Below are positions 8,900 to 27,454 of a stretch of 35,664 nucleotides of DNA, one piece after another. The notes below the pieces were generated by a model. That model had not been told where the DNA came from. It did no database searches and saw only the letters and a program-made list of their open reading frames with translations. The position numbers were made by a program, and so were the translations under genes. Source of the DNA: Planctomycetia bacterium (GTDB lineage: Bacteria > Planctomycetota > Phycisphaerae > FEN-1346); NCBI GenBank assembly GCA_003170085.1, contig PMZT01000111.1:1-35664 (forward strand), in the 5' to 3' direction. How positions within the stretch are numbered: position 1 is the stretch's first letter; every line of letters begins with the position of its first letter.

Positions 8900-9036
8900 A
8901 GGGGCCCGCCCACCCCGAAGGCCGAGTTTCTGGAGATACGGGGAGTGGCTGCAAGGAGTGGTCATGGGGGGAGTGATAGGCAGGTCAGCCCGTCAACCGT
9001 GGCCGGATACGTTGCCATGCCGCAGGAGAAGTGAAT

Positions 9037-11211
9037 ATGGGGTGGCTGGCCCTCGGCGCGGTTCTCCTGGCCTCCTGGAACTCACCCTATCCTGCCGCCG
9101 ATGAAAGAGCGAATGTTCTATACACGTCGTTTACGGAGGAGCCCCGGCACCTCGACCCTGCCCGTGCCTATGGCAGCGGCTACGATCAGTTGTACCAGAT
9201 TCTGGAGCCGCCTTTCCAATACCACTTTCTCAAGCGTCCCTACACGCTATTGCCACTGACCGCAACCGACGTACCCCGGCCGGAAACCCGGACCCTCACC
9301 TGGCGGGGCGAGACCCTCCAGGCCACCGTTTACACGATCCGGATCAAACGCGGCATCCGCTACCAGAATCATCCGTGTTTCGTCGAGGCGAACCGCCGGC
9401 TCACGCCGGAAGGCGTCCGGCAGGTCCGGTCGGTCGAGGACTTTGCCCAGGCGGCCACGCGCGAACTCGTGGCGGCCGACTATGTCCTTGCCATCCGGCG
9501 GCTGGCGGATCCGCGCCTTTCGTGCCCCGTTCTTCCCACGCTCAAGCAGAACATCCTTGGCCTGCGCGAGTACGGCGACATGCTGGCGTCGGCCATCGAC
9601 GAGGAGCGGAAACGTCGCCGCGAGATCGCCGGTCCCTTGTACAATCAGGAGCAGGACGAGAAGTACAGGCCGATCCGGCTGGACTACGGCGCCTTTGAGT
9701 TCCCGGGTATCCGCGAGGTCGATTCCCACACGTTCGAGGTCGTGCTGCCGCATCCTTACCCGCAGATCCTGTACTGGATGATCCTCCCCTTTTTCTCGCC
9801 GGTCCCGCCGGAAGCGACCGAGTTCTTCGACCAGCCCGTGCTCCTGGAGCGGTCGATCATCTTCGACAGGAACCCTGTCGGCACAGGGCCTTACCGATTG
9901 GCCGAATACGATCCGACCAATCAGATTGTCCTCGTGCGGAACGAAAACTTCCATGGGGAGGCGTACCCTGATCTGGCACGGCCCGGCGCGGACGACCCGA
10001 ATGCGCTGGCGCTGTATGAGAAGATGCGCGCCGAGGGCATGTTGGCCGACGCCGGCAAGCCGTTGCCGATGACGGACCGGGTCGTGCTGCGGCGCGAGAA
10101 AGAGTGGATTCCGCTGTGGAACAAGTTCCTCCAGGGCTACTATGACATGTCGGAGATCAGCAGCGACCTCTTCGACCAGGCGGTCACGCTCACGTCGCAA
10201 GGCGATGTGCGGGTCTCGGACGAGATGGCCCGGCGCGGCATCCGGCTGTTGACCACCCCGTTGCCGAAAGTGTACTACCTCGCGTTCAACATGCGGGATC
10301 CGCGGGTCGGCGGCTATAGCGAAAAGCAGCGCAAACTGCGACAGGCGATCAACATCGCGTTTGACTCGGAGGAGGAGATCGCCATCTTCTTCAACGGCCG
10401 GGGAATACCCGCCCACAGCCCCATTCCGCCGGAGGTCTTCGGCTACGAAGACGGCGAGGCGGGCATCAACCCCTTCTCTTACCGGTGGGATGCGAGGCTG
10501 AAGAAGCCCGTCCGCCGGTCACTCGAGGAGGCGAAACGCCTGCTGGCCGAGGCGGGCTACCCCGACGGCTATGGCCCCGACGGCCGGCCGCTCGTGATCG
10601 GTTTTGACAACGCGTACGTGAGCGCGACTGACCGGCCGCACCTCAGGTTCATCGTCAAGCAATTCGCGAAACTCGGCATCCGCCTGGAATCGCGGACCAG
10701 CGACTATAACCGTCTCTGGGACAAGGTGATGGACGGCAACTACCAGTTGCTTGCCTGGGGGTGGCTGGCGGACTACCCTGACCCGGAGAACTTCCTGTTT
10801 CTGCTCTACGGCCCCAACGCCCGGGGCAAGGGCGGCAGCGAGAACAACGCCAACTACGCCAATCCCGAGTTCGACAGGCTGTTCGTACAGATGCGGAACC
10901 TATCGAACACGCCGGAGCGACTCGCGCTCATCCGCCGGATGAACCGCCTCTTCCAGGAAGACGCGCCGTGGGTGCTTGGGAATCACCCCGTTTTGTACGC
11001 GCTTGTTCACCAGTGGTATGGTAATGCATACCCACATGCCATGTACCCCAACATCATGAAGTACCGGAAGATCGACGTCGGCGCCAGGGCCGATCGCCAG
11101 AACCAGTGGAATACTCCGCACTGGGGGCCTGTGCTGGTGGTTCTCCTGGTGCTCGCGGTCCCCGCCGCGGCGGGCATCCGGGCCGCCATCCGACACGCAC
11201 GAGAGGCCTGA
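9037..11211 (+). CDS. Extracytoplasmic peptide-binding protein (SBP_bac_5) with C-terminal membrane anchor
   Basis: This is the solute receptor of a Dpp/Opp-type ABC importer. I choose ATG 9037 over GTG 9031 because AGGAG (9024-9028) is spaced correctly only for the ATG. The 724-residue product has a signal peptide (MGWLALGAVLLASW...). Family-5 binding protein features follow: EPRHLDPARAY near the N-terminus, GTGPYRLAEYDPTNQIVLVRN, and WGWLADYPDPENFLFLLYG. It is longer than the usual 500-600 residues, with a charged insertion around 185-225 (EERKRRREIAGPLYNQEQDE). The last 30 residues form a transmembrane helix (VLVVLLVLAVPAAAGI) ending in Arg/His-rich sequence, so the receptor is membrane-anchored rather than a lipoprotein. 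The permease gene begins 4 bases after its stop. The likely ligand is a peptide, perhaps proline- or hydroxyproline-rich, judging from downstream genes. Confidence 0.9.
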   Translation: MGWLALGAVLLASWNSPYPAADERANVLYTSFTEEPRHLDPARAYGSGYDQLYQILEPPFQYHFLKRPYTLLPLTATDVPRPETRTLTWRGETLQATVYTIRIKRGIRYQNHPCFVEANRRLTPEGVRQVRSVEDFAQAATRELVAADYVLAIRRLADPRLSCPVLPTLKQNILGLREYGDMLASAIDEERKRRREIAGPLYNQEQDEKYRPIRLDYGAFEFPGIREVDSHTFEVVLPHPYPQILYWMILPFFSPVPPEATEFFDQPVLLERSIIFDRNPVGTGPYRLAEYDPTNQIVLVRNENFHGEAYPDLARPGADDPNALALYEKMRAEGMLADAGKPLPMTDRVVLRREKEWIPLWNKFLQGYYDMSEISSDLFDQAVTLTSQGDVRVSDEMARRGIRLLTTPLPKVYYLAFNMRDPRVGGYSEKQRKLRQAINIAFDSEEEIAIFFNGRGIPAHSPIPPEVFGYEDGEAGINPFSYRWDARLKKPVRRSLEEAKRLLAEAGYPDGYGPDGRPLVIGFDNAYVSATDRPHLRFIVKQFAKLGIRLESRTSDYNRLWDKVMDGNYQLLAWGWLADYPDPENFLFLLYGPNARGKGGSENNANYANPEFDRLFVQMRNLSNTPERLALIRRMNRLFQEDAPWVLGNHPVLYALVHQWYGNAYPHAMYPNIMKYRKIDVGARADRQNQWNTPHWGPVLVVLLVLAVPAAAGIRAAIRHAREA

Positions 11212-11215
11212 CCGC

Positions 11216-13459
11216 ATGATCGCGTACTTCATACGACGCCTGCTCTACGCCGCGCCGATCGTCGGGGGCGTTCTCGTCCTGACGTTCATACTATTCTTCG
11301 TGGTGAACAAGCCCGACGACATGGCGCGGCGGATCCTGGGCGAGAAACAGGCCACTCCCCAGGCCATCGAAAACTGGAAACGCGAGCACGGCTACCACCT
11401 CCCCCTGTTTCTGAACACCGACGAGCAGGGTCTCAGGAAGGTCACGGCCACCTTGTTCTTCCAGAAGGGCGCGCGGCTGCTCGTGTTCGACCTCGGGCGG
11501 TCCGATGTCACCGACCGCGACATCGCCGCCGAGATCAGGCGGAGGATGGGCCCCAGCCTGGCCATTGCGGTGCCTACGTTCGTGCTGGGCATGGCGGTGA
11601 GCGTCACCATTGCCCTCATCATCGCCTTCTGCCGGGGAACCTACCTGGACCGATGGGGAACCGTGGTCTGCGTTCTGATGATGTCGGTCTCATCGCTCTT
11701 TTACATTATTGTGGGGCAGTTCATCTTTGCGGTCTGGCTGCGGTTGTTCCCGATCTCCGGGTTCGACTGGGGCGGGTCGATGCCGAAGTTCGTCGTCCTG
11801 CCCATCCTCATCGGCCTCGTGGACGGCATCGGCGGCGGCGTGCGCTATTACCGCACCGTGGTGCTCGAGGAGACGGGGCGCGACTACGTCCGGACCGCGC
11901 GGGCCAAAGGCCTCAGCGAAGCGGTCGTGCTTTTCCGCCACGTCCTCAAGAACGCCCTGATCCCCATCCTGACCAATGCCGTGACGGCCATTCCCTTCCT
12001 GTTTATGGGCAGCCTGATTATGGAATCGTTCTTCGCGATTCCGGGGCTGGGCAGCATGACCATCGATGCCATTCACGCGCAGGATTTTGCCGTCGTGCGG
12101 TCCGTGGTTTACATCAGCGCCTTCCTGTACATCGCCGGCCAGTTGATGACGGATTTCAGTTACACGCTCGTGGACCCGCGCGTCACGCTGGGCGCCGGCG
12201 ATACACGCAACCTTTACAGCGCGCCGTCGTGCTCCGACGCCGCCCTATTCCTGGGCCTCTTCGCTGCGATGGCGGCCGTTGCGGCCGGAGGCTATTTCGG
12301 CGTCCGGTGGCTGTCGGAGTCGCCCGCCGTCAGCGGCCTGCGCGTGCCCCTGCTGCCGAACGCGGCGCTCGTGCTCACGGTGCTGGGGGCCGCCGGCTTC
12401 TGGCTCAGGGCGCGCCGGCGCGAACTCTGGCGCAGCGCCTGGCGCGAGGTCAGGCGCAGCCCAGTCGCCGTGGCCGCCCTGGCTGTGCTGGGGGTATACG
12501 TTGCCATCGCTATCCTCGACAGCGTCTCATGGCGCGACGTGGAGCCCGGCCCCGACGGCGCCCCGCGCCTGACCGCTTCCGGACAGGTGCTCTACACGCC
12601 GCCCCGCTCGGCGATCGACCGGATCCTTGCCCCCCTCGCGGCCCCGGAGAAGACCTACTCGGCCCCCTTGGCCGCGCAGTCTCTCATGAGAGAAACCGTC
12701 GATGGGGCCGCGGCCGGCGGGACCGTCACGCAGCAGATTTACCCGCCGTTGGATCATCCCGGCCGGCACCTGCTGGGCACCGACAAGGTCGGGCAGGACG
12801 TGTTCTGCCAGACCGTCAAGAGCGTACGCACGGGGCTGATTGTCGGTGGGCTCACCACGCTCATTGCGGTGCCTTTCGCCATTCTGTTCGGCGTCCTCGC
12901 CGGCTTCTTTGGCGGTTGGGTCGATGATGTGGTCCAGTACGCGTACAGCACGCTGGCCTCGGTGCCGTGGGTGCTGCTGGCCGTGGCTTTCATGCTGGTC
13001 TTCGGGCAGGGACTGCCGCAACTGTGTGTGGTGCTGGGCCTGACCGGTTGGGTCTCGTTGTGCCGCGTGCTGCGCGGTGAGACCTTGAAACTGCGCGAAC
13101 GCGAGTACGTACAGGCCGCGCTGGCGTTGGGGGTCTCGCGGCTTCGTGTCATCTACCAGCACGTGATCCCCAACCTGATGCACCTGGTGCTCATCAGCGT
13201 GGTCCTGCGGTTCAGTTGGCTCGTGTTGGCCGAGGCGGTGCTGAGTTACATCGGCGTCGGCGTTGGTCCCGAAACCTCCAGTTGGGGTTCGATGATCGAC
13301 CAGGCCCGCAGTGAACTGGGCCGCGACCCGATCGTCTGGTGGGGTCTGGCCGGCGCCTTCGTAGCCATGTTCGGCCTTGTGCTGAGCGCCAACCTCTTCG
13401 GCGATGCGCTGCGGGATGCCCTCGACCCGCGCCTGCGCATTCGGGAGGAACGGGCATGA
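11216..13459 (+). CDS. Fused DppB-DppC peptide ABC transporter permease
   Basis: A 747-residue polypeptide joins both integral-membrane halves of a Dpp/Opp importer, which are normally separate proteins of about 300-330 residues. Residues 1-330 are DppB-like: N-terminus [18 protein letters not shown], and the EAA-type coupling segment around [18 protein letters not shown]. Residues about 340-440 contain extra hydrophobic helices joining the halves. From about 400 the DppC half begins, with a long soluble loop ([18 protein letters not shown]), then [10 protein letters not shown], membrane helices, and its own coupling segment [37 protein letters not shown] is a classic DppC ending. The gene overlaps the ATPase gene by ATGA. 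The continuous frame with a sensible linker argues for a true fusion rather than a missed stop. Confidence 0.92.
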
Positions 13460-15480
13460 GCGGGCCTCTTCTGAAGGTTGAGAACTTGCGGACCTGGTTC
13501 CGCACCACCGCAGACCCACTCCGTGCCGTTGACGGTGTCTCGTTCACGCTTGATCGGGGCGAGACGCTCGGCCTGGTGGGCGAGTCGGGCTGCGGCAAGA
13601 CACTGACAGGCCTCTCGCTCATGCAGCTTGTTCCCCAGCCGACGGGGTACATTGCGGGCGGTTCCGTCCTCTTCGAAGGCCAGAACCTCCTGGCCATGAC
13701 GGGGCCCGAGAAGCGCAGCCTCCGCGGCCGGAAGATGGCCATGATATTCCAAGAGCCCATGACCAGCCTGAACCCGGTCCTGACGGTCCAGACGCAACTC
13801 CTGGAGGCGGTCCGGCGGCGGGAGCGCCTTTCGCGATCCCGTGCGATTGAGCGGGCCCTCTCGGTGCTGCGGCTCGTCCGGATGCCCGACCCGGCCGCGC
13901 GACTGGGCCAGTATCCCTATCAACTTTCCGGCGGAATGCAGCAGCGCGTGATGATCGCGATGGCGCTGGCGTGCGAGCCGGCCCTCCTGATCGCCGACGA
14001 ACCGACGACGGCGCTCGACGTCACCGTGGAAGCCCAGATTCTGGATCTCTTACGCGACCTTCAGGCGCGGCTGGGCACGGCGATCCTGTTCATCACGCAC
14101 GATCTGGCGGTGGTGGCCGAGATGGCCCGTCGCGTGGCCGTGATGTACGCCGGAAAGATCGTCGAAATGGCGCCGTCCGGCGCGCTTCTCGGCGGGACGG
14201 GCCCGATGCATCCCTACACGCAACTGCTGCTCCGCTCGCGGCCGAGCCGCCAGCAGCGCCAACGGCGGCTCGAAAGCATCGGCGGTGTCGTACCCAGCCC
14301 GTCCTGCTTCCCGCCGGGCTGCCGTTTCTCGGATCGGTGTCCGCACGCGCTGGATCTCTGTCAGGGCACTGAGCCCGTCCTCGCCGAGGTCGAGAAGGGC
14401 CACTTCGTGGCGTGCCACCTGCAGGGTGCACGCCGAGCGGCGGCGGCTGTCGGGCCGCCTGTGGCGGCTGGAGTTAGCGCCGATGCCGGGCGCGAGAACC
14501 ATCTGCTTCTTGAAGCACGGAGCGTCGTGAAGTACTTCGCTATCCGGAAGGGTGTCCTCAAGCGGATCGTCGGTCATGTCAAGGCCGTGGACGGCGTTGA
14601 CTTGGCCATCCGCCGCGGCAGCACGGTTGCGTTGGTGGGCGAGTCGGGCTGCGGCAAGACGACCCTCGGTAAAACGCTCATCCGTCTCCTGCCGGCGACG
14701 GCCGGCACGGTCCTCTTCGATGGCGCCGATCTGACGGCCCTCGGAGACCCTGAGTTGCTGCGCCTCCGTCGCCGCGCCCAGATCATCTTTCAGGATCCGT
14801 TCCTGTCGTTGAATCCGCGGATGATGGTCCGCGAGATCATCGAGGAAGGGATGCGGGTCCACGGACTGGGCGGTACGGCGTCCGGCCGAAAGGAGCGGGT
14901 TGACCAACTGCTCAACTGCGTGGGTCTCTCGCCGCGAGCGGCGACGGCCTACCCCCACGAGTTTTCGGGCGGGCAGCGGCAGAGGATCGGCATCGCGCGC
15001 GTGCTGGCCGTCGAGCCCGACTTCGTGGTGTGTGACGAGCCTACCAGCGCTCTTGACGTCTCGATCCAGGCGCAGATACTGAACCTCCTCCGGGAACTTC
15101 AGGAGCGGTTCCAGTTGACGTACCTGTTCATCACGCACAATCTGGGTGTGGTGGAGTACGTGGCCGACGAGGTGGCGGTCATGTACCTGGGGCGGATCGT
15201 TGAGCAAGGCCCGACCGAGCCGCTCTTCGATGAACCCCTTCACCCGTATACGCAGGCACTGCTTTCGGCCATCCCGAGCGCCGACCCCTCGCAGCATACG
15301 CAGCGTATCCGTCTCGAGGGAGACGTGCCTTCGCCTATCGCGCCGCCGCCGGGGTGCCACTTTCATCCCCGTTGCCGCTACGCCATGACGGTATGCCGGA
15401 GCGTATACCCGAACGAGACGCGGCTGGATGGCGGCCGGGTAGTTCGCTGCCACCTTTACGAAGGACGACCGCATGCCTGA
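13456..15480 (+). CDS. Fused DppD-DppF peptide ABC transporter ATPase
   Basis: I set the start at ATG 13456, which overlaps the permease stop (ATGA) and has GGGAGGA 8 bases upstream; the track's 13339 start would overlap the permease by about 120 bases. The 674-residue protein holds two complete ABC ATPase units. Unit 1: Walker A GESGCGKT (about 42-49), signature LSGGMQQR, Walker [13 protein letters not shown]. Unit 2: second GESGCGKT, signature FSGGQRQR, Walker [13 protein letters not shown]. Each unit ends in the oligopeptide-transporter Cys motif ([17 protein letters not shown] and [17 protein letters not shown]). It powers uptake by the upstream permease. Single-gene DppDF fusions are known, but here both permease and ATPase pairs are fused, so the transporter needs only three genes. 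The downstream gene overlaps it by 8 bases. Confidence 0.95.
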
Positions 15481-18400
15481 AGACAGCACAAGACCACTGA
15501 TTCTCTGGTATAACCGGCCTGCCGCCGAGTGGCGGGAGGCGTTGCCCGTCGGCAACGGCCGCCTCGGGGCCATGGTTTTCGGGACGGCGCCGGCCGAGCG
15601 CATCCAACTGAACGAGGAGACGGTCTGGACGGGCGGGCCTTATGACCCGGCTCAGCCCGGCGGCCCCGAGGCCCTGCCTGAGATCCGCCGGCTCGTCTTC
15701 GCCGGCGAGTGCATGAAGGCCCACTATCTTTTCGGCAAGACGATGATGGGCCGGCCCGTCGAGCAGATGAAGTACCAGCCGCTGGGCAACCTCAGGCTCA
15801 CCTTTCCGGGGCACGACGATGTGGCCGACTACGGGCGCGAATTGGACCTCGACGCCGCAGTGGCCACGGTCTCGTACCGTGTGGGCGGCGTTCACTTTGC
15901 ACGCGAAGTTCTGGCCAGCGCGGTCGATCAGGTTGTCTGCATCCGTCTGACGGCCGATGCGGAGAAGGCTATTTCCTTTGAGGCCGACTTCTCCGGCGGG
16001 CAGGAAGGCCGGCCTCAGGGCGATGCGACGTGGGAGTGCACCGTGTCAGCCCCCGACGAACTGGTGTTGCGCGGCCGCACGGCCGGCCATCAGGGTATCG
16101 AGGGCCGCGTGGCGTACGAGGCCCGTGTCAAGGTGCTCGCGGAGGGCGGGGAAGTGGCCGCCCGCGAAGGACGGTTGATGGTCACAGGCGCCGATGCCGC
16201 CACCCTGCTCGTTGCGGCCGCGACGAACTTTGTCCGGTACAACGATCTCGGAGGCGAAAGCGCCGCACGCGTTCGGTCGTGTCTCGATGCCGCGGCCGGC
16301 AAGCCGTATCGCCGGATCAAGGACGCCCACGTGGCCGATCATCGGCGGCTACTGCGGCGTGTGGCCCTGGAACTGCCGGCGACCGAGGCGTCCTCGCTAC
16401 CTACCGACGAGCGCCTCCGGCGTTACGCCGAGGCCGGCGACCCGCACCTGGCCGCGCTCATGTTCCAGTTTGGCAGATACCTGTTGATCTCAAGCAGCCG
16501 CCCGGGATGCCAGCCCGCCAACCTCCAGGGGATCTGGAACGAGGATGTCAACCCGGCGTGGGAAAGCAAGTTCACAACCAACATCAACCTGGAGATGAAC
16601 TACTGGCCAGCCGAAGTGGCGAACCTCCCGGAGTGCGTTGAGCCCCTCGTGTGTCTCGTGGAAGACCTCGCTGTGACGGGCCGGCGCATCGCCGAGATTC
16701 ACTATGGGGCGCGCGGCTGGGTGCTCCACCAGAACACGGACCTGTGGCGGGCGGCCGCCCCGATGGATGGGCCGACGTGGGGCACCTGGCCGATGGGCGG
16801 CGCGTGGTTGTGCCGGCACCTGTGGGAACATTATCTTTACAGCGGCGACCGCGAGTTCCTCAGTCGCGTGTACCCGCTCTTCACGGGGGCGGCGCAATTC
16901 TTCATCGACACGCTGGTCGAGCATCCCGGGAGCGGCCGGCTGGTGACCTGCCCGTCGAGTTCGCCGGAGAATTTCCCCGCGTGCCCGGGCAACGGCAAAT
17001 ACTTTGATGAGGTGCTCAAGTTCAACCTTCCCGGCACGAGCATCTGCGCCGGTCCGACGATGGATACGCAGATTCTGCGCGACCTGTTCTCGGCCTGCAT
17101 CGCCGCGGCCGAGATTCTCGGGCTTGATGCCGATCCGCGGAAAACGTGGACGCTCACCCGCGCGCGTCTTGCCCCGATGCAAGCCGGCCGCAACGGCAAC
17201 CTCCAGGAGTGGCTCGAGGACTGGGACGACCTCGAGCACCAGCACCGCCACCTGTCGCACCTGTATGGGGCGTTCCCCAGCGACCAGATCACGCCCGAGG
17301 AAACCCCCGACTTGGCGGAAGCCGTGAGGGCGTCGCTGGAGCAACGGGGCGATGGCGGTACGGGGTTCTCGATGGCCTGGAAGGCCGCCTTGTGGGCTCG
17401 CCTTCGAGACGGCGACCGCGCTCACCGCTGCCTGGCGAACCTCATCACGAAAAACACCTGCCCGAACGGATTCTCGCTGTGCTTCAAGGCACCGCAGGTG
17501 GACGGCACGTTCGGCGGCTGCGCGGCCATCGCCGAAATGCTGCTCCAGTCGCATGGCGGGGCGATCCGCCTGCTGCCGGCGCTGCCCGCGGCCTGGCCCG
17601 ACGGGGCGTTCCGGGGGTTCCGGGCGCGCGGCGGGCTGGAAGTCGATCTCACTTGGCGTGGCGGCCGCGCGCAGTCGGCCACGATCCGCGCAGCCGTGGC
17701 GGGTCGTTTCTGCGTTAAGCCGCCGCCGGGGCAGCGGATCGCAGAGGTGATCAGCGCCGGCGCGGCGGCCGCCGGCGTGGCGGTTTCGATCAGCCCGCAC
17801 GCGGACGGCTCGGCGGACCTTGAGTTCCGCGCAGGCCAGGCTTGCGACATCGTGTTTGCCGAGGCCGGTTCGGGCGCAGCGGAGTCGTCGGCGCCACGGC
17901 CCGGCTCGTCCGAGGAGGTGCTGTTCCCGCGGGACTTCCCGCCCGAGGAATTTGCGTCGCGATGGGCGCGGATCTTCGAGGCCATCGGACCCCGGGCGCA
18001 CGCCCTTCTTCAAGGTGCCCCTCCGGTCCGCGGCTTCGAGGTCTTCCGCCAGACCAACGAATTCTATTACTGCTGCGGCGTGGAAGTGCCCCAGACCTAC
18101 CTGCTCCTGGACGCGGCGAACCGCCGGACGACGCTCTTTCTTCCTCACCGCCCCAAGGGGCGAAACGCGGAGGGGGCGTCTCTCGCGGCGGAGGACGCCG
18201 ACCTGTTCCGGCGGCGAACCGGCGTCGACGCCGTGTTCGGGATCGAAACGCTGTCCGACCACCTGCGGGGCATCTCCGTTCTCTACACGCCACATAGTCC
18301 CGCGGAAGGGAGGTTCGGCGACCGTTTCGAGGCCAAACGGGCCGACCAGTGCGCGGCGGAGGATGCGTGGGACGGTCGGCCGCCGCGCGAGCGGCATCTC

Positions 18401-19249
18401 ATCGACCTGCTTCGGGCGCGCCTGCCCGGCGTCGAGATTCGCGACCTCTCACCGGTGCTCGATGAGCGGCGCGCGGTCAAGAGCCCTCGCGAGATCGATC
18501 TCCTGCGCCGGGCCGGCCACCTCTCGGCGGTGGCAATCACCGAGGCCATGCGCGCCACTCGCCCGGGGATGGTCGAGTACCAGTTGGGCGCGATCGCCGA
18601 CCACATTTTTCTGAGCCACGGCGCGCGGGGCGAAGGGTATCGCTCGATTATCGCCAGCGGCAAGAACGCGTGGTTTGCCCACTACTTCCGCAACACCGGC
18701 GTGATGAAAGAGGGGGATCTTGTGCTGATGGACGCCGCCCCGGACCTCGGCCACTACACCAGCGACATCGGCCGCATGTGGCCCGTGGGCGGCGTTTACA
18801 CCCCGTGGCAGCGCGAGCTGTACGGCTTCATTGTGGAGTATCACAAGACGCTGCTTGCACGGGTACGCCCCGGCGTGACCGCGGACCAGATCCTTGCCGA
18901 GGCTGCCGCCGAGATGGCCAAGGTGGTGGAACAAACGGCCTTCTTGAAGGGAACCTACAGGGATGCGGCTCGCCGCACGCTCGAGTTCAAGGGGCACCTG
19001 TCGCATCCGGTTGGCATGGCGGTGCACGATCCCGGCGGATATCGCGAGAAGCCGCTCGCCGCAGGCGTCGTATTCGCGGTTGACCCGCAGATGTGGGTTC
19101 CCGAGGAGGAACTCTACATCCGGGTCGAGGACACCGTGGTGGTGACCGAACAGGGGATTGAGAATCTCACGGCCGCCGCGCCGCTGGAACTGGATGACGC
19201 TCAGGCCGTGATGCGCGAGGCGAGCGCATTCCCGCGGTTGGGGCACTGA
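15473..19249 (+). CDS. GH95 glycosidase fused to an M24B Xaa-Pro peptidase-like domain
   Basis: A 1258-residue cytoplasmic protein (no signal peptide). Residues about 8-800 form a full GH95 enzyme, a family of alpha-L-fucosidases and alpha-L-galactosidases: [21 protein letters not shown], the Asn-x-Asn pair N370/N372 in [10 protein letters not shown], acid-candidate Glu579 in LQEWLED, and Asp677 in VDGTFGG. A Ser/Pro/Glu-rich linker (about 800-816) leads to a creatinase-like N-domain (about 817-1010) and a pita-bread M24B catalytic domain. Metal ligands: Asp1087, Asp1098 (spacing 11), His1178 with His1185 (spacing 7, as in PepP), Asp1204 where Glu is usual, and Glu1219. M24B enzymes cut Xaa-Pro bonds. 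No internal stop or spaced ribosome site is visible at the junction. It overlaps the ATPase gene by 8 bases. I infer it trims sugar and prolyl bonds of imported glycopeptides. Confidence 0.9.
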
Positions 19250-19353: not shown

Positions 19354-20346
19354 ATGGCGCCGCACAAGGACGGTTATCACCGGGTTAACATGGGTATAGA
19401 GGCACGCAAATCTTCGGGCGCGATATCCGACCCGCCCGGCGCTGGCGCGGGCCAGAGCGGCCTTGTCTTCGATATTCAGAGATACTCCATCCACGACGGT
19501 CCGGGCATCCGCACCACGGTCTTTATGAAAGGATGCCCGCTCGACTGCTGGTGGTGCCACAACCCCGAGAGCCAATCGGCCGAGCCCGAGATCGTTGTAA
19601 GCGAAGGCCGATGCGTCCGTTGCGGCGAGTGCCTGAAGGTTTGCCCCAACGGCAGGGTGAGCGGCAGCGCCGGCGCGGAGGGGCCGCCCTGCACGCTGTG
19701 CGGCGCATGCGTCGCGGCGTGTCCCACGGGCGCCCGGAAGTTGGCCGGAGAGCGGATGACCGTGGGCACTTGTGTGGCCGAAGTGCTCAAGGACCGCATC
19801 TTCTACGAGGACTCCGGCGGCGGCGTGACCTTCTCGGGCGGCGAGCCGCTCCTTCAGCCGCGCTTCCTCAAGCGGCTGCTTGAAGCGTGCCGCGGCGCGG
19901 GCCTCCACACGGCCGTGGACACATGCGGTTTCGCCCCGTGGGACGACCTGCTGGCGGTGGCGCCGCTGACGACCCTCTTTCTCTATGACCTGAAGGGCGC
20001 CGATTCTCGAAGTCACATGGACCACACGGGGGTCTCAAGTGCCCTTATTCTCGACAACCTGCGGGCCTTGGGGGCCGTCCACAACAACCTCTGGCTCCGC
20101 GTGCCCATCCTCCCCGGCCTGAACGATGACGACGCCCAGTTGGAGGCGATGGCCTCCCTGGCAGCTTCCATTGCGGGAGTGCGGCAGGTGAACCTGCTGC
20201 CGTACCATCAAACGGGTATGCATAAGTTCAGACAACTCGGCAGGGCCTACCGGCTGGAGGGGCTCGTGCCGCCGTCGCCGGAGCGCATGGAGGAAGTAGC
20301 GGCCAGGTTCAGGGCCTTCGGCCTCAAAGTCCGGGTGGGAGGTTAG
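19354..20346 (+). CDS. Glycyl radical enzyme activase (HypD-activating enzyme)
   Basis: A 330-residue radical-SAM protein that installs the glycyl radical on the enzyme encoded next to it, using S-adenosylmethionine and a [4Fe-4S] cluster. The RYSIHDGPGIRTTVF segment is diagnostic of GRE activases. The radical-SAM cysteines are C61, C65 and C68 (CPLDCWWC, the CX3CX2C form). Two ferredoxin-type motifs follow: CVRCGECLKVCP (C87-C97) and CTLCGACVAACP (C113-C123), as in activases of the glycerol-dehydratase and HypD type. FSGGEPLLQP is the SAM-binding GGE motif. No good ribosome site precedes ATG 19354; ATG 19390 would match the length of homologues equally well, so the start is uncertain. Its stop is only 4 bases from the dehydratase start. 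Confidence 0.94.
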   Translation: MAPHKDGYHRVNMGIEARKSSGAISDPPGAGAGQSGLVFDIQRYSIHDGPGIRTTVFMKGCPLDCWWCHNPESQSAEPEIVVSEGRCVRCGECLKVCPNGRVSGSAGAEGPPCTLCGACVAACPTGARKLAGERMTVGTCVAEVLKDRIFYEDSGGGVTFSGGEPLLQPRFLKRLLEACRGAGLHTAVDTCGFAPWDDLLAVAPLTTLFLYDLKGADSRSHMDHTGVSSALILDNLRALGAVHNNLWLRVPILPGLNDDDAQLEAMASLAASIAGVRQVNLLPYHQTGMHKFRQLGRAYRLEGLVPPSPERMEEVAARFRAFGLKVRVGG

Positions 20347-20350
20347 CGGC

Positions 20351-22756
20351 ATGACGCAGCGAACGGCAAGGCTGAGGCGGGCCAGTCTGGACGCCGCACC
20401 CTCAATCACCCCGGAGCGGGCGGTCCTGATGACAGAGTTCTACCAGGCCAATGACGGACGGTACTCCGTACCGGTCATGCGGGCACGCTCATTCCTTCAC
20501 CTGTGCGAGAACAAGGCGATCTACCTGGGCGAAGACGAACTGATTGTGGGAGAGCGGGGGCCTCGGCCCAAAGCGGTGCCTACCTACCCGGAATTGACCT
20601 GCCACAGCATTGAGGATCTCCAGATCCTCAACTCTCGCCCGAAGACCAGTTACGCGGTATCGGATGAGTGCGTCAGGATCTACCGGGACCGAATCATCCC
20701 GTACTGGCGCGGCCGCAGCATGCGGGACCGCATCTTCGAGGCCGTCTCGGACGAGTGGCGTCAAGCCTACGATGCCGGTCTGTTCACGGAGTTCATGGAG
20801 CAGCGGGCACCGGGGCATACGGTCCTCGACGACAAGATCTACCGCAAGGGCATGGTGGATTTCAAGCGTGAGATCGCCGAGGCCATTGCCGGTCTCGACT
20901 GGCTCGGCGATCCCGATGCCTGGGCGAAACGGGAGCAACTCCAGGCCATGGCGATCGCCTGCGATGCCGTCCTCCTGTTTGCCCGGCGCCACGCGGCGCT
21001 GGCGCTCAAGCAGGCGGCCGAGGCGCGCGATCCCCGGCGCAGGGCGGAACTGGAGAAGATCGCCGACGTTTGTACGCACGTCCCCGCCGGCGCCCCGCGG
21101 GATTTCCACGAGGCGCTCCAGTACTACTGGTTCTGCCACCTCGCGATCATCACCGAACTGAACGGCTGGGACTCCTTCAGCCCCGGCCACCTGGACCAGC
21201 ATCTGCTGCCTTTCTACCGCAAGGGTCTCGCCGACGGGACGTTGACCCCGGAGGCCGCGCGCGAACTGCTGGAGGCGTTCTTCGTCAAGTTCAACAACCA
21301 CCCCGCGCCGCCCAAGGTGGGCGTGACGGCGGCCGAGAGCGGCACGTACACGGATTTTGCCAACATCAACATCGGCGGGCTGCTGGCCGACGGCGCCGAC
21401 GGTTCCAATGAAATCTCCCACCTCCTGCTGGACATCGTGGACGAGATGCACCTCCTGCAACCCAGCACCAACCTGCAACTGTCGCGTAAGACGCCCGAGG
21501 CGCTCCTCACGCACGCCCTGCGGGTCGTCAGAAAGGGCTACGGCTTCCCCTCGATCTTCAACACCGACGCCGTGGTCGAGGAGCAGTTGCGCCAAGGCAA
21601 GTCGCTGGAGGACGCCCGCGCCGGCGGGTGCAGCGGATGCGTCGAAACGGGCGCCTTCGGCAAGGAGGCGTACATCCTGACCGGCTACTTCAACCTCGTG
21701 AAGGTGCTGGAATTGACGCTTCACGGCGGCGTGGCCCCGCGCACCGGAAAACAACTGGGCATGCGCACCGCGGCAGCGGACTCCTTCCGGACCTTCGACG
21801 ACTTCTTCGCGGCCTTCCGCGCGCAACTTCACTACCTCATAGACGTCAAAATGCGCGGCAACCAGACGATCGAGCAGATGTACGCCCGCCTGATGCCCGC
21901 GCCGTTCTTGTCGGTCCTTACCGACGACTGCATCCGCAAGGGCAAGGACTACAACGCCGGCGGCGCACGCTACAACAATTCCTACATCCAGTTTGTAGGC
22001 ATCGGAAGCCTGACGGATTGCCTTGCGGCTGTCAGGCAGACGGTCTTTGACGATAAGGCCATGAGTCTTGGCGACCTCGTGAAGGCGCTCGATGCGAACT
22101 TTGAGGGAAGCGAGATTCTCAGGCGGCGCCTCGTCAACCGCACCCCCAAGTACGGCAACGATGACGACGACGCCGACGCGCTCGCCGTCCGGGCCTTCGA
22201 GGCCCTCATTGAAGAGGTGGACGGACGGCCCAACACCAAGGGGGGCCGGTATCGCGTCGAGATGCTCCCGACCACAAGCCACATCTACTTCGGCTCAGTC
22301 ACTGGGGCGATGCCCGACGGGCGGAAGGCGGGGCTGCCGCTGTCGGAGGGGATCTCGCCCGTGCAGGGCGCGGACCGCCGCGGGCCGACGGCCGTCTTCA
22401 AGTCGGCCGCCAAGATGGACCATATCAAGACGGGCGGGGCCCTTCTGAACATGAAGTTCACGCCGGCCCTCTTGGCCGACGAAAACGGCCTCGAGAACCT
22501 TGCGCACCTCATCCGGGCATATTTCAAGATGGACGGCCACCACGTCCAGTTCAACGTGGTCCGTGCCGAGACGCTCCGCAAGGCCCAGGCCGAGCCGGAG
22601 GCCCACCGCGACCTGATCGTCCGCGTGGCCGGCTACAGCGACTACTTCTGCGACCTCGCGCGCGACCTCCAGGACGAGATCATCAGCCGGACGGAGCACG
22701 CGTCGCTTCAACTTGAGGGCGCTCCGTCGGCCCGGTCTTCGGGCGACACCCCATGA
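20351..22756 (+). CDS. hypD: trans-4-Hydroxy-L-proline dehydratase, glycyl radical enzyme
   Basis: This 801-residue GRE should dehydrate trans-4-hydroxy-L-proline to (S)-1-pyrroline-5-carboxylate in the cytoplasm under anoxia. The thiyl cysteine is Cys430 with Glu432 (GCSGCVETG), and the radical glycine is Gly761 in RVAGYSDYF. HypD from C. difficile, as I recall it, uses H160, D278, S334, F340, C434, E436, Y450, T645 and G765. Here H156, D274, S330, F336, C430, E432, Y446, T641 and G761 are all present at a constant offset of four, which separates it from glycerol, choline or pyruvate GREs. GGGAGG precedes ATG 20351. It is overlapped by the AcnX gene (ATGA) and follows its activase. The product needs pyrroline-5-carboxylate reductase, not evident here unless the reductase downstream is bifunctional. 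Confidence 0.95.
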   Translation: MTQRTARLRRASLDAAPSITPERAVLMTEFYQANDGRYSVPVMRARSFLHLCENKAIYLGEDELIVGERGPRPKAVPTYPELTCHSIEDLQILNSRPKTSYAVSDECVRIYRDRIIPYWRGRSMRDRIFEAVSDEWRQAYDAGLFTEFMEQRAPGHTVLDDKIYRKGMVDFKREIAEAIAGLDWLGDPDAWAKREQLQAMAIACDAVLLFARRHAALALKQAAEARDPRRRAELEKIADVCTHVPAGAPRDFHEALQYYWFCHLAIITELNGWDSFSPGHLDQHLLPFYRKGLADGTLTPEAARELLEAFFVKFNNHPAPPKVGVTAAESGTYTDFANINIGGLLADGADGSNEISHLLLDIVDEMHLLQPSTNLQLSRKTPEALLTHALRVVRKGYGFPSIFNTDAVVEEQLRQGKSLEDARAGGCSGCVETGAFGKEAYILTGYFNLVKVLELTLHGGVAPRTGKQLGMRTAAADSFRTFDDFFAAFRAQLHYLIDVKMRGNQTIEQMYARLMPAPFLSVLTDDCIRKGKDYNAGGARYNNSYIQFVGIGSLTDCLAAVRQTVFDDKAMSLGDLVKALDANFEGSEILRRRLVNRTPKYGNDDDDADALAVRAFEALIEEVDGRPNTKGGRYRVEMLPTTSHIYFGSVTGAMPDGRKAGLPLSEGISPVQGADRRGPTAVFKSAAKMDHIKTGGALLNMKFTPALLADENGLENLAHLIRAYFKMDGHHVQFNVVRAETLRKAQAEPEAHRDLIVRVAGYSDYFCDLARDLQDEIISRTEHASLQLEGAPSARSSGDTP

Positions 22757-24012
22757 CAGTCCGCCTGACCGATCTCGACCGCCGGATGCTCGAGGGCCGA
22801 AGCGGCGAAGGGCTCCGCCTGGCCATGTCGATCATCGTGCGCATGGCGGAGGTCTGCGGTGCGGATGAACTGCTGGATGTCTCCCAGGCCCATATCGACG
22901 GATGCGGCTCCCTGAGCGAGTCCAGCCTGCAGTTCGCCGAGACGCTGGCCTCCGGCGGCGCGAAGGTCTCCATCCCTACCACCCTGAACATGGGCCCCCT
23001 GGACCTCCAGAACTGGAGGGTGTTCGGCGTTCCCGGGGAGTTCGCCGCCAAGGCCATCCGCCAAGCCAGGGCCTATACCGACATGGGGTGCATCCCGACC
23101 TGGACGTGCGCCCCCTATCAGGGTTACCTGACGCCGCGGTTCGGCCAGCAGATCGCCTGGGGGGAATCCAACGCGGTCGTCTATGCCAACTCCGTCCTCG
23201 GCGCAAGGACCGAGCGCTACGGCGACTACATCGACATCTCGGCCGCTATCACCGGACGCGTCCCACGCCAGGGTCTGCACCTGAAGGAGAACCGCAGGGG
23301 GCAACTGCTGGTGCGCCTGGTGGACTTCAGCCCTGGCCGGCTGCGCGAGGAGACGTTCTGGCCCGCCTTCGGGCATTTTCTTGGGCCGGTTGCCGGCGAC
23401 CGGATTCCCGTCATTGAGGGCCTGCCGCCGGATGCGACGGACGACCAGTTGAAGGCTCTGGGCGCCGCGGCCGCCTCGTCCGGCGCGGTGGCGCTTTTCC
23501 ACGCCGTCGGCCTGACCCCCGAGGCCCCGACCGCGGCCGAGGCTTTCCAGGGCGGCCGGCCGGAAGAGACCCTCGATGTGCGTACCGGCGACCTGGACGC
23601 CGCCGCTGCCGATCTTTCGACCGCCGACGAAGGGGCGCCGCTGGACCTCGTCCTCCTGGGCTGCCCGCATTTCTCCTTTGCCGAATTTCGCCAGTTGGCT
23701 GAACAGGTCCGGCTCGCCCCAGGCCGATCGCGTTGCTCGTTCATCGTGATCACGTCCACGCAGGCCCATGCGCTGCTCGAGCGGAGCGGCTTGCCCGCGT
23801 CGCTCGCGGATTTCGGCGTTCGCATTACGCTCGACACGTGCATGTTCCACACCCCGATGGTCGCCCCGGGGACGCGGGTGGTTATGACCAACTCCGGAAA
23901 GTGTGCGTACTACGCGCCGGGCGAACTCGGCGTGAAGGTGGCATTCGGGAGCCTCGCCGACTGTGTCCGTTCGGCCGTCGAGGGCCGCGTGCGGCGGGAG
24001 GGTCGCCGATGA
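22753..24012 (+). CDS. Aconitase X catalytic (large) subunit
   Basis: A 419-residue protein of the AcnX large-subunit family (formerly DUF521). Bacterial AcnX enzymes dehydrate cis-3-hydroxy-L-proline to pyrroline-2-carboxylate; archaeal ones act on mevalonate 5-phosphate. Supporting motifs are SAHID-type AHIDGCGSLSESSLQFAE, TTLNMGPLDL, CAPYQGYL, WGESNAVVYANSVLGAR, LLGCPHFS and TLDTCMFHTP. Cysteines in CAPY, GCPH and DTC are the candidate iron-sulfur ligands, and SGKCAYYAPG near the C-terminus is also typical. The start overlaps the HypD stop (ATGA) and its stop overlaps the small-subunit start (ATGA), so the three are translationally coupled. Position beside HypD and an ornithine-cyclodeaminase homologue favours the hydroxyproline-dehydratase role. 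Substrate stereochemistry cannot be decided from sequence. Confidence 0.9.
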   Translation: MTVRLTDLDRRMLEGRSGEGLRLAMSIIVRMAEVCGADELLDVSQAHIDGCGSLSESSLQFAETLASGGAKVSIPTTLNMGPLDLQNWRVFGVPGEFAAKAIRQARAYTDMGCIPTWTCAPYQGYLTPRFGQQIAWGESNAVVYANSVLGARTERYGDYIDISAAITGRVPRQGLHLKENRRGQLLVRLVDFSPGRLREETFWPAFGHFLGPVAGDRIPVIEGLPPDATDDQLKALGAAAASSGAVALFHAVGLTPEAPTAAEAFQGGRPEETLDVRTGDLDAAAADLSTADEGAPLDLVLLGCPHFSFAEFRQLAEQVRLAPGRSRCSFIVITSTQAHALLERSGLPASLADFGVRITLDTCMFHTPMVAPGTRVVMTNSGKCAYYAPGELGVKVAFGSLADCVRSAVEGRVRREGRR

Positions 24013-24440
24013 CCCGGCACCTGATCGGCAGAGTCCTTGTCTCCGGTGCCGCAGAGGGCTTGGCGCTCGTGACCAGGCAACCGCTCAGTTTCTGGGGCGG
24101 CTTCAACCCGAAGACCGGCGAAATCGTGGACCGGCGGCACGAATGCTCTGGCCAGATCGTCACGGGGCGGGTGTTTGTCCTCCCGGCTGGGAAAGGCTCC
24201 AGCACGGGCAGCGCATGCCTGCTGGAGGGTATCCGTCTCGGCACGGCCCCCGCCGCCATCCTCCTCTTGAAGACGGACCCGATCCTGGCCCTCGGCGCCA
24301 TCGTGGCCGACGAACTCTACGGCCGGTCGGTGCCCATCCTGGTGCTGCCCGAAGAGGGTTTCCACTCGCTGAAAGACGGCGACCGCGTTGCCATTGCACG
24401 CGGTGGCGAACTGACGGTGAGTTCTCCCGACACAGTGTAA
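24009..24440 (+). CDS. Aconitase X swivelling (small) subunit
   Basis: A 143-residue protein of the DUF126/AcnX small-subunit family, which forms the swivelling domain of the heterodimer. I choose ATG 24009, overlapping the large-subunit stop; the track's start at 23733 lies inside that gene and is a shadow extension. The diagnostic loop is LPAGKGSSTGS, which contains the conserved serine that contributes to the active site, and the ISRLGTAPAA-like segment is seen as RLGTAPAAILL. The C-terminus VLPEEGFHSLKDGDRVAI is a normal family ending. Length is typical. Confidence 0.92.
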   Translation: MTRHLIGRVLVSGAAEGLALVTRQPLSFWGGFNPKTGEIVDRRHECSGQIVTGRVFVLPAGKGSSTGSACLLEGIRLGTAPAAILLLKTDPILALGAIVADELYGRSVPILVLPEEGFHSLKDGDRVAIARGGELTVSSPDTV

Positions 24441-24450
24441 AGGACATACC

Positions 24451-25440
24451 ATGCTGGTTCTGGATGCCGCTGCCGTGCGGCAGGCGCTGCCGATGGACGC
24501 CGCCATCAAGGCCATGAGGCGAGCCTTCGCATCGCTTTCCGCCGGTCGGGCCATCATGCCCATGCGATCGCAAATCTCAATCCGGCAGCACGACGGCGTC
24601 AGCCTGGTCATGCCTGCGTTTGTGGATGATGCCGAGGGGCAGTCGCTGGCGGTCAAGGTCGTGTCGCTGTTCGACCGCAACGCCGGTCGCGGCCTGCCGC
24701 GCATTCAGTCGGCGGTCCTGGTGCTCTCGCCCGACACGGGGCAGCCGCTGGCGCTTCTGGAAGGGGCCGCGCTCACCGCCATCCGGACCGGCGCCGCCAG
24801 CGGCCTGGCCACGGACCTTCTGGCGCGGCCGGACGCCCGCACGGCGGCCATTTTGGGGGCTGGAGTTCAGGCTCGCACGCAATTGCAGGCCATGTGTGTC
24901 GTCCGAGCCATTGAGACCGTCTGGGTGTACGATCCGAATCCGGCCGCGGTAGAGGCGTTCATTCGTGACATGGCGGGGCAGGGGCAGGCGCCCCCTGATA
25001 TCCGCCCGGCCTCCACGCCGCGCGAGGCCGTGGCCGAGGCCGATGTCATCTGTGCGGCGACCACCTCGCGCACGCCTGTCTTCGCGGATGCCGACCTGAA
25101 AGCGGGTGTGCACATCAACGCCGTGGGCTCTTACCAGCCCGATGTGCGGGAGGTTCCGACGGAGACCGTTGTCCGTGCGCGGGTCTTTGTTGACAGCCGC
25201 GAGGCGGCTTTGCAGGAGGCGGGCGACCTTATCCAGCCCATCCGCCAGGGCGCCATCAACCCGGATCACATCCGGGCCGAGCTGGGCGAACTCGTCTTGG
25301 GGCGCGCGCGAGGACGGTGCTGCGCCACCGACGTCACCTTGTTCAAGGCCGTGGGCGTTGCCGTGCAGGACGCCGCGGCCGCCATGGAGGCACTTGACCG
25401 GGCTGCGCGGCTTGGCAGCGGCCAGACAGTCTCCTGGTAA
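24451..25440 (+). CDS. Ornithine cyclodeaminase/mu-crystallin family reductase, probable pyrroline-2-carboxylate reductase
   Basis: A 329-residue NAD(P)H-dependent enzyme. AAAGGA lies about 6 bases before ATG 24451. The family segment LEGAALTAIRTGAASGLAT is followed by the Rossmann signature AAILGAGVQARTQL, with the dinucleotide-binding GAGVQA loop, and by VYDPNPAAVEAF. In known gene clusters, homologues beside AcnX reduce pyrroline-2-carboxylate to L-proline; true ornithine cyclodeaminases and alanine dehydrogenases are the alternatives. It ends the operon, 10 bases after the AcnX small subunit. Whether it also takes pyrroline-5-carboxylate made by HypD is an open question and would determine whether the operon is self-sufficient. 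Confidence 0.9.
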   Translation: MLVLDAAAVRQALPMDAAIKAMRRAFASLSAGRAIMPMRSQISIRQHDGVSLVMPAFVDDAEGQSLAVKVVSLFDRNAGRGLPRIQSAVLVLSPDTGQPLALLEGAALTAIRTGAASGLATDLLARPDARTAAILGAGVQARTQLQAMCVVRAIETVWVYDPNPAAVEAFIRDMAGQGQAPPDIRPASTPREAVAEADVICAATTSRTPVFADADLKAGVHINAVGSYQPDVREVPTETVVRARVFVDSREAALQEAGDLIQPIRQGAINPDHIRAELGELVLGRARGRCCATDVTLFKAVGVAVQDAAAAMEALDRAARLGSGQTVSW

Positions 25441-25766: not shown

Positions 25767-26001
25767 AAGTAAACCAACCGAAAGGAACAACTCAATGAGA
25801 CAAACTAGAATCGCAGCCATTGTTTCGGCACTCTGGCTTGTGACTGCCGCCATGCCCGGCCAAGCCCAGGTGCAGAAAACAGAACAAAGTCCGTCTTTAC
25901 CCTTCTGCGTGGTCGATACCGGTCAGACCAAGTGCTACGACAATTCAAAAGAGATTCCTGCTCCGAAACCGGGTGAGCCGTTCTACGGCCAGGACGCCCA
26001 G
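25767..26001 (+). repeat. DUF1566 leader repeat, copy 1
   Basis: Starts at AAGTAAACCAACCGAAAGGAA, including the ribosome-binding region and the first ~69 codons of the DUF1566 gene. A diverged second copy lies at 27220-27454. Both encode the common string KTEQ-x-PSLP-x-CVVDTGQTKCYDN and GQDAQ, so they arose by tandem duplication. Confidence 0.75.
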
Positions 26002-27225
26002 TCTCAAGGGCATCCGGCTAGTTATGTCGTCAGTGCCGACGGCCTCACTGTTTTCGACCAAACCACCGGCCTGACCTGGCAACGCAGCCCGGACACCAAT
26101 GGTGACGGGGCGCTCACTCGGCAGGACAAGCTGACCTGGACCCAGGCCCAGGCGTGGCCTGCGAAACTCAACGCCGCCAGGTTCGGTGGGTTCGACGACT
26201 GGCGCCTGCCGTCCATCAAGGAGCTTTATTCGCTCTTCGACGCCCGCGGCACCGATCCCAGCGGACCCTCCGGCGCGGACACCTCCCGACTGACGCCCTA
26301 CATCGACACGAAGTTCTTCAAGTTCGCCTATGGAGACACGAGCAAAGGCGAACGCCTCATTGATTCCCAATACGCGTCAAGCACCAGGTATGTCGGGAAG
26401 TCCGCGCGCGGGTTCGACAAACTCTTCGGTGTCAACTTCGCCGATGGCCGGATCAAAGGGTACGACCTGCAAATGCCGGGCGGCATGGACAAGACGTTCT
26501 TCGTGCAGTGCGTGCGTGCCAACCCGCAGTACGGCAAGAACGATTTCCACGTCAACGCCGACGGCACCATCACCGACCGCGCCACGGGCCTCATGTGGTC
26601 CAAGGCCGACAGCGGCAAGGGCATGAACTGGCAGGACGCGCTCGCCTGGGTCCAGAACAAGAACGCGGAAAAGTATCTCGGCCGCAGCGATTGGCGGATG
26701 CCGAACGTCAAGGAACTGCAGAGCATCGTGGACTATACCCGGTCTCCCGACACGACCCAATCGGCCGCCATTGATCCGCCCTTCGACTGCACCCGGATCA
26801 CCAACGAAGGCGGCAAAGCCGATTACCCGTTCTACTGGACAAACACGACCCACGCGGGATTGATGGGCGGTGGGGCCGGCATGTACGTAGCCTTCGGTCG
26901 CGCGGCGGGTTGGCTCTCGGCGCGCGCCTTGGCCGGCGGCGCGCCAGACCAGCGTGGCGGCCCCGGTCGCGGCGGCCCCAGGCCAGGCGGTCCTGGGCCG
27001 GGCGGTCCCGGGCCGGGCGGTCCAGGCCAAGGTGGGGGGCCGGGAGCAGGCCCGCAGGCAGCCGGCTCCGACGACTACCAGTTCGCCGACGTGCACGGCG
27101 CCGGTGCGCAACGCAGCGATCCCAAAACCGGCGACCCGCGGAATTTCCCGCATGGCCGCGGGCCGCAAGGCGACGTTATCCGCATCTACAACTTCGTCCG
27201 CCTCGTGCGCAACGCGGTGAAGTAA
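25795..27225 (+). CDS. Secreted DUF1566 (Lcl_C) domain protein with Gly/Pro-rich collagen-like run
   Basis: A 476-residue exported protein with a signal peptide (MRQTRIAAIVSALWLVTA...GQA) and GAAAGG-type ribosome site 10 bases upstream. It holds two DUF1566-like modules: the first centred on FGGFDDWRLPSIKELYSLFD (about residue 130) and the second on RSDWRMPNVKELQSIVDY (about 300), each preceded by the usual DRATGLMW-type strand. DUF1566 is widespread in secreted proteins of uncertain, probably binding or adhesive, function. Residues about 388-420 are a low-complexity run of GGP/GPG units inserted before the final DYQFADVHGAGAQRSDPK segment. The next gene begins with a copy of this gene's leader. 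No enzymatic motif is visible. Confidence 0.8.
   Translation: MRQTRIAAIVSALWLVTAAMPGQAQVQKTEQSPSLPFCVVDTGQTKCYDNSKEIPAPKPGEPFYGQDAQSQGHPASYVVSADGLTVFDQTTGLTWQRSPDTNGDGALTRQDKLTWTQAQAWPAKLNAARFGGFDDWRLPSIKELYSLFDARGTDPSGPSGADTSRLTPYIDTKFFKFAYGDTSKGERLIDSQYASSTRYVGKSARGFDKLFGVNFADGRIKGYDLQMPGGMDKTFFVQCVRANPQYGKNDFHVNADGTITDRATGLMWSKADSGKGMNWQDALAWVQNKNAEKYLGRSDWRMPNVKELQSIVDYTRSPDTTQSAAIDPPFDCTRITNEGGKADYPFYWTNTTHAGLMGGGAGMYVAFGRAAGWLSARALAGGAPDQRGGPGRGGPRPGGPGPGGPGPGGPGQGGGPGAGPQAAGSDDYQFADVHGAGAQRSDPKTGDPRNFPHGRGPQGDVIRIYNFVRLVRNAVK
26956..27053 (+). repeat. GGP-rich low-complexity coding repeat
   Basis: Tandem variants of GGC-GGT-CC(C/T/A)-GG(G/C) encode GGPGRGGPRPGGPGPGGPGP and onward. It lies in frame within the DUF1566 gene and looks like slippage expansion of a short GC-rich unit. 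The peptide lacks a strict Gly-X-Y periodicity, so triple-helix formation is not assured. Confidence 0.8.
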
Positions 27226-27454
27226 ACCAGCCGAAAGGAAAAGGCAGGTGAGACAAAACATAGCCCCATCGATGTTTCCCGCCCTTTTGCTTCTGAGTTC
27301 CGCTATGATCAGCCAGGCCCAGTTGCAGAAAACAGAACAACATCCCTCTTTACCCTACTGTGTGGTCGATACCGGCCAGACCAAGTGCTACGACAACCGC
27401 GGCGAAATCGCGCCGCCGAAACCCGGTCAGCCGTTCTATGGCCAAGACGCCCAA
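27220..27454 (+). repeat. DUF1566 leader repeat, copy 2
   Basis: Begins AAGTAAACCAGCCGAAAGGAA right at the end of the DUF1566 gene and matches copy 1 (25767-26001) through the coding sequence for the mature N-terminus. In this copy the initiator ATG has become GTG (GTGAGACAAAAC versus ATGAGACAAACT). Confidence 0.75.

Follow-up and report, generated by a model that had tools for sequence, protein, structure and literature searches.

A HypD-AcnX operon in a planctomycete genome

The DNA analysed here (the window) is a stretch of 35,664 nucleotides from contig PMZT01000111.1 of the Planctomycetia bacterium assembly GCA_003170085.1, and it carries on the plus strand one operon of four genes that are probably all devoted to hydroxylated prolines. 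The first gene (20351..22756) encodes HypD, the glycyl radical enzyme trans-4-hydroxy-L-proline dehydratase (NF043068; 6vxc, 8.6e-303). It is followed by the large subunit of an AcnX-type dehydratase with domains 1-3 (AcnX-L, 22753..24012; PF04412, 1e-139; 7cnp/7d2r alignments), the small, swivel subunit (AcnX-S, 24009..24440; PF01989, 7.2e-27; 7d2r alignment) and a reductase of the ornithine cyclodeaminase (OCD)/mu-crystallin family (24451..25440; PF02423, 1.6e-71; 6t3e), probably acting on Delta1-pyrroline-2-carboxylate or 4-hydroxy-pyrroline-2-carboxylate. The genes are tightly connected. An ATGA at 22753-22756 combines the HypD stop with the AcnX-L start, a second ATGA overlap joins the genes of the two AcnX subunits, and 10 bases lie between the AcnX-S stop and the reductase start. 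The original prediction had described three of these coupled reading frames correctly and left the small subunit unnamed. We suggest, with a probability of about 50%, that this operon removes both hydroxyls of a 3,4-dihydroxylated proline in series, yielding proline.

The operon closes a gene series on the plus strand that begins with a glycyl-radical-enzyme activating enzyme of the radical SAM type (19354..20346; PF04055, TIGR02494). This protein is the probable HypD activase, and its best NCBIfam model, T4HPD_activ_SAM, gave 362 bits, below the cut-off of 425. The source genome (4.47 Mb in 313 contigs, 89% complete) has its nearest relatives among metagenome-assembled genomes (MAGs) of Planctomycetota.

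Judged by its score against the NF043068 equivalog (1232.6 bits, cut-off 1100) and by all published catalytic residues, the window HypD is a bona fide member of its family. It is closest to the C. difficile enzyme (6VXC, 54% identical) and retains H160, D278, S334, D339, F340, C434, E436, Y450 and T645 in C. difficile numbering, including the CXE motif; the roles of these catalytic and substrate-binding residues were taken from PMC7077986. The glycyl radical motif reads RVAGYSDY. Both systems have an own activase adjoining HypD, but the window differs from C. difficile in that its HypD shares an operon with AcnX and a reductase of the OCD family.

The reductase remained below every NCBIfam equivalog cut-off, with PRK08618 and PRK06141 as best models (PRK06141, 279.6 versus 322; the LhpI-type NF045512, 141.9 versus 400). 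Its nearest solved structure, 6t3e (5e-82), is a Delta1-pyrroline-2-carboxylate reductase, and PF02423 together with this characterised nearest solved relative places it among the OCD-type enzymes of that activity. The idea that it may also reduce the pyrroline-5-carboxylate (P5C) released by HypD was set aside, since a profile search of the source genome found a separate proC on contig C30 (258 bits, above the cut-off), and the reductase is hence not needed for this step.

Active-site residues and phylogeny of AcnX

The window AcnX was aligned with AtAcnX (7CNP), the archaeal TkAcnX (7CNR) and relatives, and positions were read according to PMC8184944. In AcnX-L, D49, G52, C119, E138 and S139 are equivalent to Asp203, Ile206, Cys273, Glu292 and Ser293 of AtAcnX, and C304, C363, K383 and Y387 to Ser449 (a cysteine in type II enzymes), Cys508, Lys530 and Tyr534. 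In AcnX-S, W29, S64, S65 and T66 are equivalent to Trp35, Ser70, Cys71 and Thr72. Fold and family are shared with AtAcnX, as are the residues that hold the proline nitrogen and ring (the ring-stacking Trp35 and the amine-binding Thr72 and Asp203) and the catalytic Ser70 (the general base), Glu292, Ser293, Lys530 and Tyr534. The linkage to a pyrroline-2-carboxylate reductase and to hydroxyproline genes is likewise common to AtAcnX-type enzymes. The window differs from them in the translational coupling to HypD, in Gly for Ile206 and in the cluster ligands. These are Cys119, Cys304 and Cys363 (positions 273, 449 and 508) without Cys510, which is the type II, mevalonate-type pattern, in an enzyme encoded by two genes; type I enzymes have cysteines at 273, 508 and 510 and type IIa enzymes only two (PMC8184944). 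Hence, the window AcnX shares the separate subunits with type IIa, but not the two-cysteine pattern, which was found in L054. It also does not fall into type IIb, the archaeal mevalonate 5-phosphate dehydratases, whose heterodimeric structure and three cysteines it shares, because the pocket residues Leu27/Val64 of the small and Ala47/Ser50 of the large subunit are absent and the sequence lies outside the TkAcnX branch.

The original prediction had named residues matching the mevalonate-phosphate dehydratases as evidence that would speak against it. This match holds for the iron-sulphur cysteines, but pocket residues and tree are those of cis-3-hydroxyproline dehydratases, and the mevalonate-type identity was rejected. 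Asp203, Thr72 and Trp35, which are replaced by Ala, Val and Leu in the mevalonate enzyme, are retained here (PMC8184944). In the maximum-likelihood tree, the window clade (98/98) falls within the cis-3-hydroxyproline side (100/100), apart from the well-supported mevalonate-type branch (100/98); the neighbouring genes belong to hydroxyproline metabolism and mevalonate genes are not nearby. That the enzyme serves some metabolism other than that of proline, with mevalonate 5-phosphate as one conceivable substrate, is therefore hardly credible despite the cysteine pattern. On these sequence grounds, the window AcnX is a member of the cis-3-hydroxyproline side of the family and of an undescribed subclass there.

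A preference for trans-3-hydroxyproline, which would serve collagen breakdown, had been considered as well. It would suit the occurrence of both trans-3 and trans-4 isomers in collagen and the oligopeptide transporter and Xaa-Pro peptidase encoded upstream. However, the residue set for elimination from 2,3-cis substrates is intact (AcnX-S Ser64/Thr66; AcnX-L Asp49, Glu138, Ser139, Lys383, Tyr387), and trans-3-hydroxyproline is not a substrate of the AcnX enzymes characterised so far (PMC5144071, PMC8184944). Moreover, the usual trans-3 dehydratase is a proline-racemase-family enzyme, and none was found above the cut-off in the window genome, which makes this preference very improbable.

One of these differences concerns position 206. 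In type I enzymes, the side chains of Ile206 and Trp35 both contact the substrate ring at C4-C5, and this contact has been proposed as the cause of the poor turnover of C4-hydroxylated cis-3-hydroxyproline (PMC8184944), which is about 300-fold slower (PMC5144071). The corresponding codon of AcnX-L (Gly52, 22906..22908, plus strand; alignment according to PMC8184944) encodes glycine, and all 21 clade members in the tree have Gly or Ala at this site. The loss of the Ile206 side chain makes a C4-hydroxylated compound a candidate substrate of the clade, a suggestion drawn from one contact residue.

Gene context and distribution in relatives

A single scan across the GTDB genomes yielded 21 relatives. 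The HypD-AcnX-OCD operon is present in the window and in the MAGs L007 and L021, all of one family, and the recurrence of the gene order argues against a chance arrangement. A Pseudomonadota contig (L026) unites HypD, AcnX and OCD genes in one cluster with a LIV transporter and a gene of the proline-racemase family. Most of the remaining planctomycete copies have AcnX-L, AcnX-S and a prolyl dipeptidyl peptidase (DPPIV), followed by either an OCD gene on the opposite strand or a DHDPS-type gene, which adjoins an aldehyde dehydrogenase (ALDH) gene in L014 and an AFOR gene in L019, G471 and G478. The L014 ALDH could not be named a specific alpha-ketoglutarate-semialdehyde dehydrogenase, since no NCBIfam equivalog scored above its cut-off, and it is only called an aldehyde dehydrogenase here. 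Prolyl peptidases (DPPIV, M24) were repeatedly found next to AcnX or HypD.

The two partner types exclude each other genome-wide. Among 12 related planctomycete genomes, eight have only an OCD gene of the AcnX-locus type, four have only the DHDPS ortholog and none has both, a split that would arise by chance once in 495 cases if relatedness is ignored. The sister group of the DHDPS type consists of DHDPS proteins from classical hydroxyproline clusters (L025, L111), where these stand beside D-amino-acid-oxidase-like and LhpDE-like genes; a proline-racemase-family epimerase was not found in three of the four DHDPS-type genomes. AcnX thus appears to pass its product either to the reductase or to the DHDPS-type protein and its ALDH or AFOR neighbour, which together would represent the lower, deaminating part of the classical pathway for trans-4-hydroxyproline. 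This part enters at 4-hydroxy-pyrroline-2-carboxylate, and hence the alternation fits an AcnX product that retains the 4-hydroxyl. Such a product would be formed from 3,4-dihydroxyproline and not from cis-3-hydroxyproline. The classical L-hydroxyproline cluster (epimerase, D-hydroxyproline dehydrogenase, DHDPS-type deaminase, alpha-ketoglutarate-semialdehyde dehydrogenase, LhpI) holds this AcnX clade in L024/L025 and a type I enzyme in S. meliloti. In contrast, the window operon is free of epimerase, dehydrogenase and deaminase genes, and its route would be reductive and, through HypD, oxygen-sensitive.

A phylum-wide association of HypD with AcnX (HypD above the cut-off in 13 of 392 genomes), very strong at first sight, was rejected as inflated by lineage, because the order with most AcnX copies is rich in HypD. 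The test was therefore redone within one order (148 genomes). HypD was present in 17/17 AcnX genomes (13 above the cut-off, four broken or at contig ends) compared to approximately 59/131 of the others (p = 4.5e-6). HypD in the absence of AcnX does occur in planctomycetes, whereas the reverse is hardly seen, the genome of L013 being the exception. The AcnX distribution is nested inside the HypD-bearing genomes, which would suit HypD acting downstream. The conserved operon, this nested distribution and the adjoining prolyl peptidases bear out the earlier assignment of AcnX and the OCD-family reductase to hydroxyproline-type substrates in connection with HypD.

Proposed pathway and alternatives

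The proposed serial route builds on the observed gene identities, operon, residues, tree, distributions and partner swapping; from these we infer which substrate is used, in which order its hydroxyls are removed and that it comes from diatoms. First, AcnX-L/S with its [4Fe-4S]-type cluster would remove the 3-hydroxyl of 2,3-cis-3,4-dihydroxy-L-proline by anti-elimination, giving 4-hydroxy-pyrroline-2-carboxylate, which the OCD-family reductase would convert to trans-4-hydroxy-L-proline. HypD would then remove the 4-hydroxyl by radical chemistry to give P5C, and ProC, encoded outside the operon, would produce L-proline. The starting substrate would be 2,3-cis-3,4-trans-3,4-dihydroxy-L-proline, a diatom cell-wall residue. 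To our knowledge, this is the only natural dihydroxyproline whose 3-hydroxyl lies cis to the carboxylate and whose 4-hydroxyl lies trans to it; those of mussel adhesive protein and virotoxins are 2,3-trans. As AcnX needs the former and HypD the latter configuration, the diatom compound fits both enzymes. Its presence in diatom cell walls is stated by two papers (PMC3478156, PMC4792425) citing Nakajima and Volcani 1969. There is also a precedent for the first two steps. PaLhpI together with pyrroline-2-carboxylate reductase converted 2,3-cis-3,4-cis-dihydroxyproline to cis-4-hydroxyproline (PMC5144071), and hence the 3,4-trans epimer would yield trans-4-hydroxyproline, the substrate of HypD.

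The main rival is the parallel handling of two isomers, as proposed in the original prediction. Here, AcnX would convert free cis-3-hydroxy-L-proline to pyrroline-2-carboxylate and the OCD enzyme would reduce it to proline, while HypD would separately take trans-4-hydroxy-L-proline from the same proteins. All three enzymes would then act on their textbook substrates, in agreement with the position of AcnX among the cis-3-hydroxyproline dehydratases and of the reductase nearest to a pyrroline-2-carboxylate reductase; known AcnX genes are also frequent in trans-4-hydroxyproline clusters (PMC5144071). However, parallel handling leaves the Gly/Ala206 exchange and the alternation of OCD and DHDPS-type partners unexplained. 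Furthermore, no protein source of cis-3-hydroxyproline is known, and the describers of AcnX knew this amino acid solely from one antibiotic, telomycin. We consider this explanation somewhat less probable than the serial route. The link between the hydroxyproline activities thus stands, and for the substrate the evidence leans, without proof, to one doubly hydroxylated compound processed in series.

The serial order might also be reversed. HypD would then take the 4-hydroxyl of dihydroxyproline first, ProC would reduce the resulting P5C analogue, which still bears the 3-hydroxyl, to cis-3-hydroxy-L-proline, and the last steps would fall to AcnX and the reductase, again on textbook substrates. 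In this regard, many AcnX-bearing relatives, including L021, possess a HypD with CVT in place of the CXE motif, and its specificity may have shifted there. However, Glu436 and all residues for trans-4-hydroxyproline are intact in HypD of both the window and L007, and the loci with DHDPS-type partners point to a 4-hydroxylated AcnX product. The reverse order is hence improbable.

The CVT-type HypD homologues form a group of their own interest. They occur in many planctomycetes (L021:4455-6815; the HypD loci of L098-L108; L030, L038), score above the equivalog cut-off and differ by Thr for Glu436, all remaining active-site residues being retained. The E436Q variant of C. difficile HypD is inactive (PMC7077986). 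The CVT enzymes might therefore use either another substrate or another acid-base solution, and database models would assign them a wrong name. In the order sample, Thr436 was found in all nine AcnX-positive genomes checked compared to 5/21 AcnX-negative ones. A perfect pairing of the CVT type with AcnX was dropped, because AcnX-negative genomes (L030, L038 and the five mentioned) carry it and the window HypD has CVE.

Several observations weigh against the proposed serial route. Position 206 is Ala in the Bipolaricaulota clade members L022 and L023 and Ile in the more distant HypD-linked locus L026, hence Gly206 is no strict partner of HypD, and Trp35, the second C4-C5 contact, is still present. 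The co-occurrence becomes weaker when only matches above the cut-off are counted (13/17 versus 53/131, p = 0.005); HypD is common in the order, and the genomes are related MAGs that represent few independent events. Identity between the DHDPS-type proteins and their counterpart in the S. meliloti cluster is only about 29%, and the putative deaminase role of these proteins as well as the presumed ALDH/AFOR functions are based on gene context. Finally, the link to diatom habitats is circumstantial.

At somewhat less than even odds, the undescribed AcnX subclass might represent a 3,4-dihydroxy-L-proline 3-dehydratase and, together with the reductase and HypD, form the first catabolic route for the diatom dihydroxyproline, in anaerobic marine and lake planctomycetes. 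A search of the available literature on dihydroxyproline breakdown found no degradation pathway, and only PMC5144071 was relevant. If true, the proposal would give the AcnX subclass a function and explain the existence of AcnX enzymes lacking a clear natural substrate, the genes being widespread although the assigned substrate was known to the describers of the enzyme from a single antibiotic only. It would also provide a marker for the anoxic breakdown of diatom wall protein, and it would show two unrelated dehydratases chained to reverse a double hydroxylation.

Neighbouring genes and further observations

Upstream of the activase gene, the plus strand encodes an oligopeptide ABC transporter (9031..15480) with SBP_bac_5, a permease pair and an ATPase pair (PF00496, PF00528, PF00005, PF08352), probably a peptide uptake system serving the pathway. 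It is followed by a fusion protein that combines a glycoside hydrolase of family GH95 with an Xaa-Pro aminopeptidase of family M24 (15473..19249, plus strand; PF22124, PF00557, PF05195). The best NCBIfam match of its C-terminal part is the Xaa-Pro aminopeptidase PRK10879, and the protein is a likely upstream supplier of (hydroxy)prolyl residues. GH95 and M24 share a single open frame of 1258 aa, while the M24 part was matched alone in L007, by an open reading frame of 463 aa; the arrangement in the window might represent either a genuine fusion or the loss of a stop codon. Two sulfatases are also encoded upstream of the operon.

In L098-L101, L103 and L106, a member of the M24 aminopeptidase P family is located approximately 3-5 kb from HypD and is 71-80% identical to the AcnX-adjacent one in L012. 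In the Bipolaricaulota loci L022 (6924-8621) and L023 (from 7247), an ILVD/EDD dehydratase gene comes next after AcnX-S. The cluster in L026 includes, between the proline-racemase-family and OCD genes, a prolyl-tRNA-synthetase-like protein of 571 aa with an editing domain (12933-14645); this putative spare synthetase could prevent proline analogues from being charged by mistake. Downstream of the window operon, two adjoining open reading frames with a similar N-terminal stretch lie in the region 25795-29107, the first being of the Lcl_C type. The second continues into PSCyt/PSD1-like sequence and stops at about 28102, directly before a PSD1 reading frame (28106-29107), and perhaps represents a decayed or broken gene.

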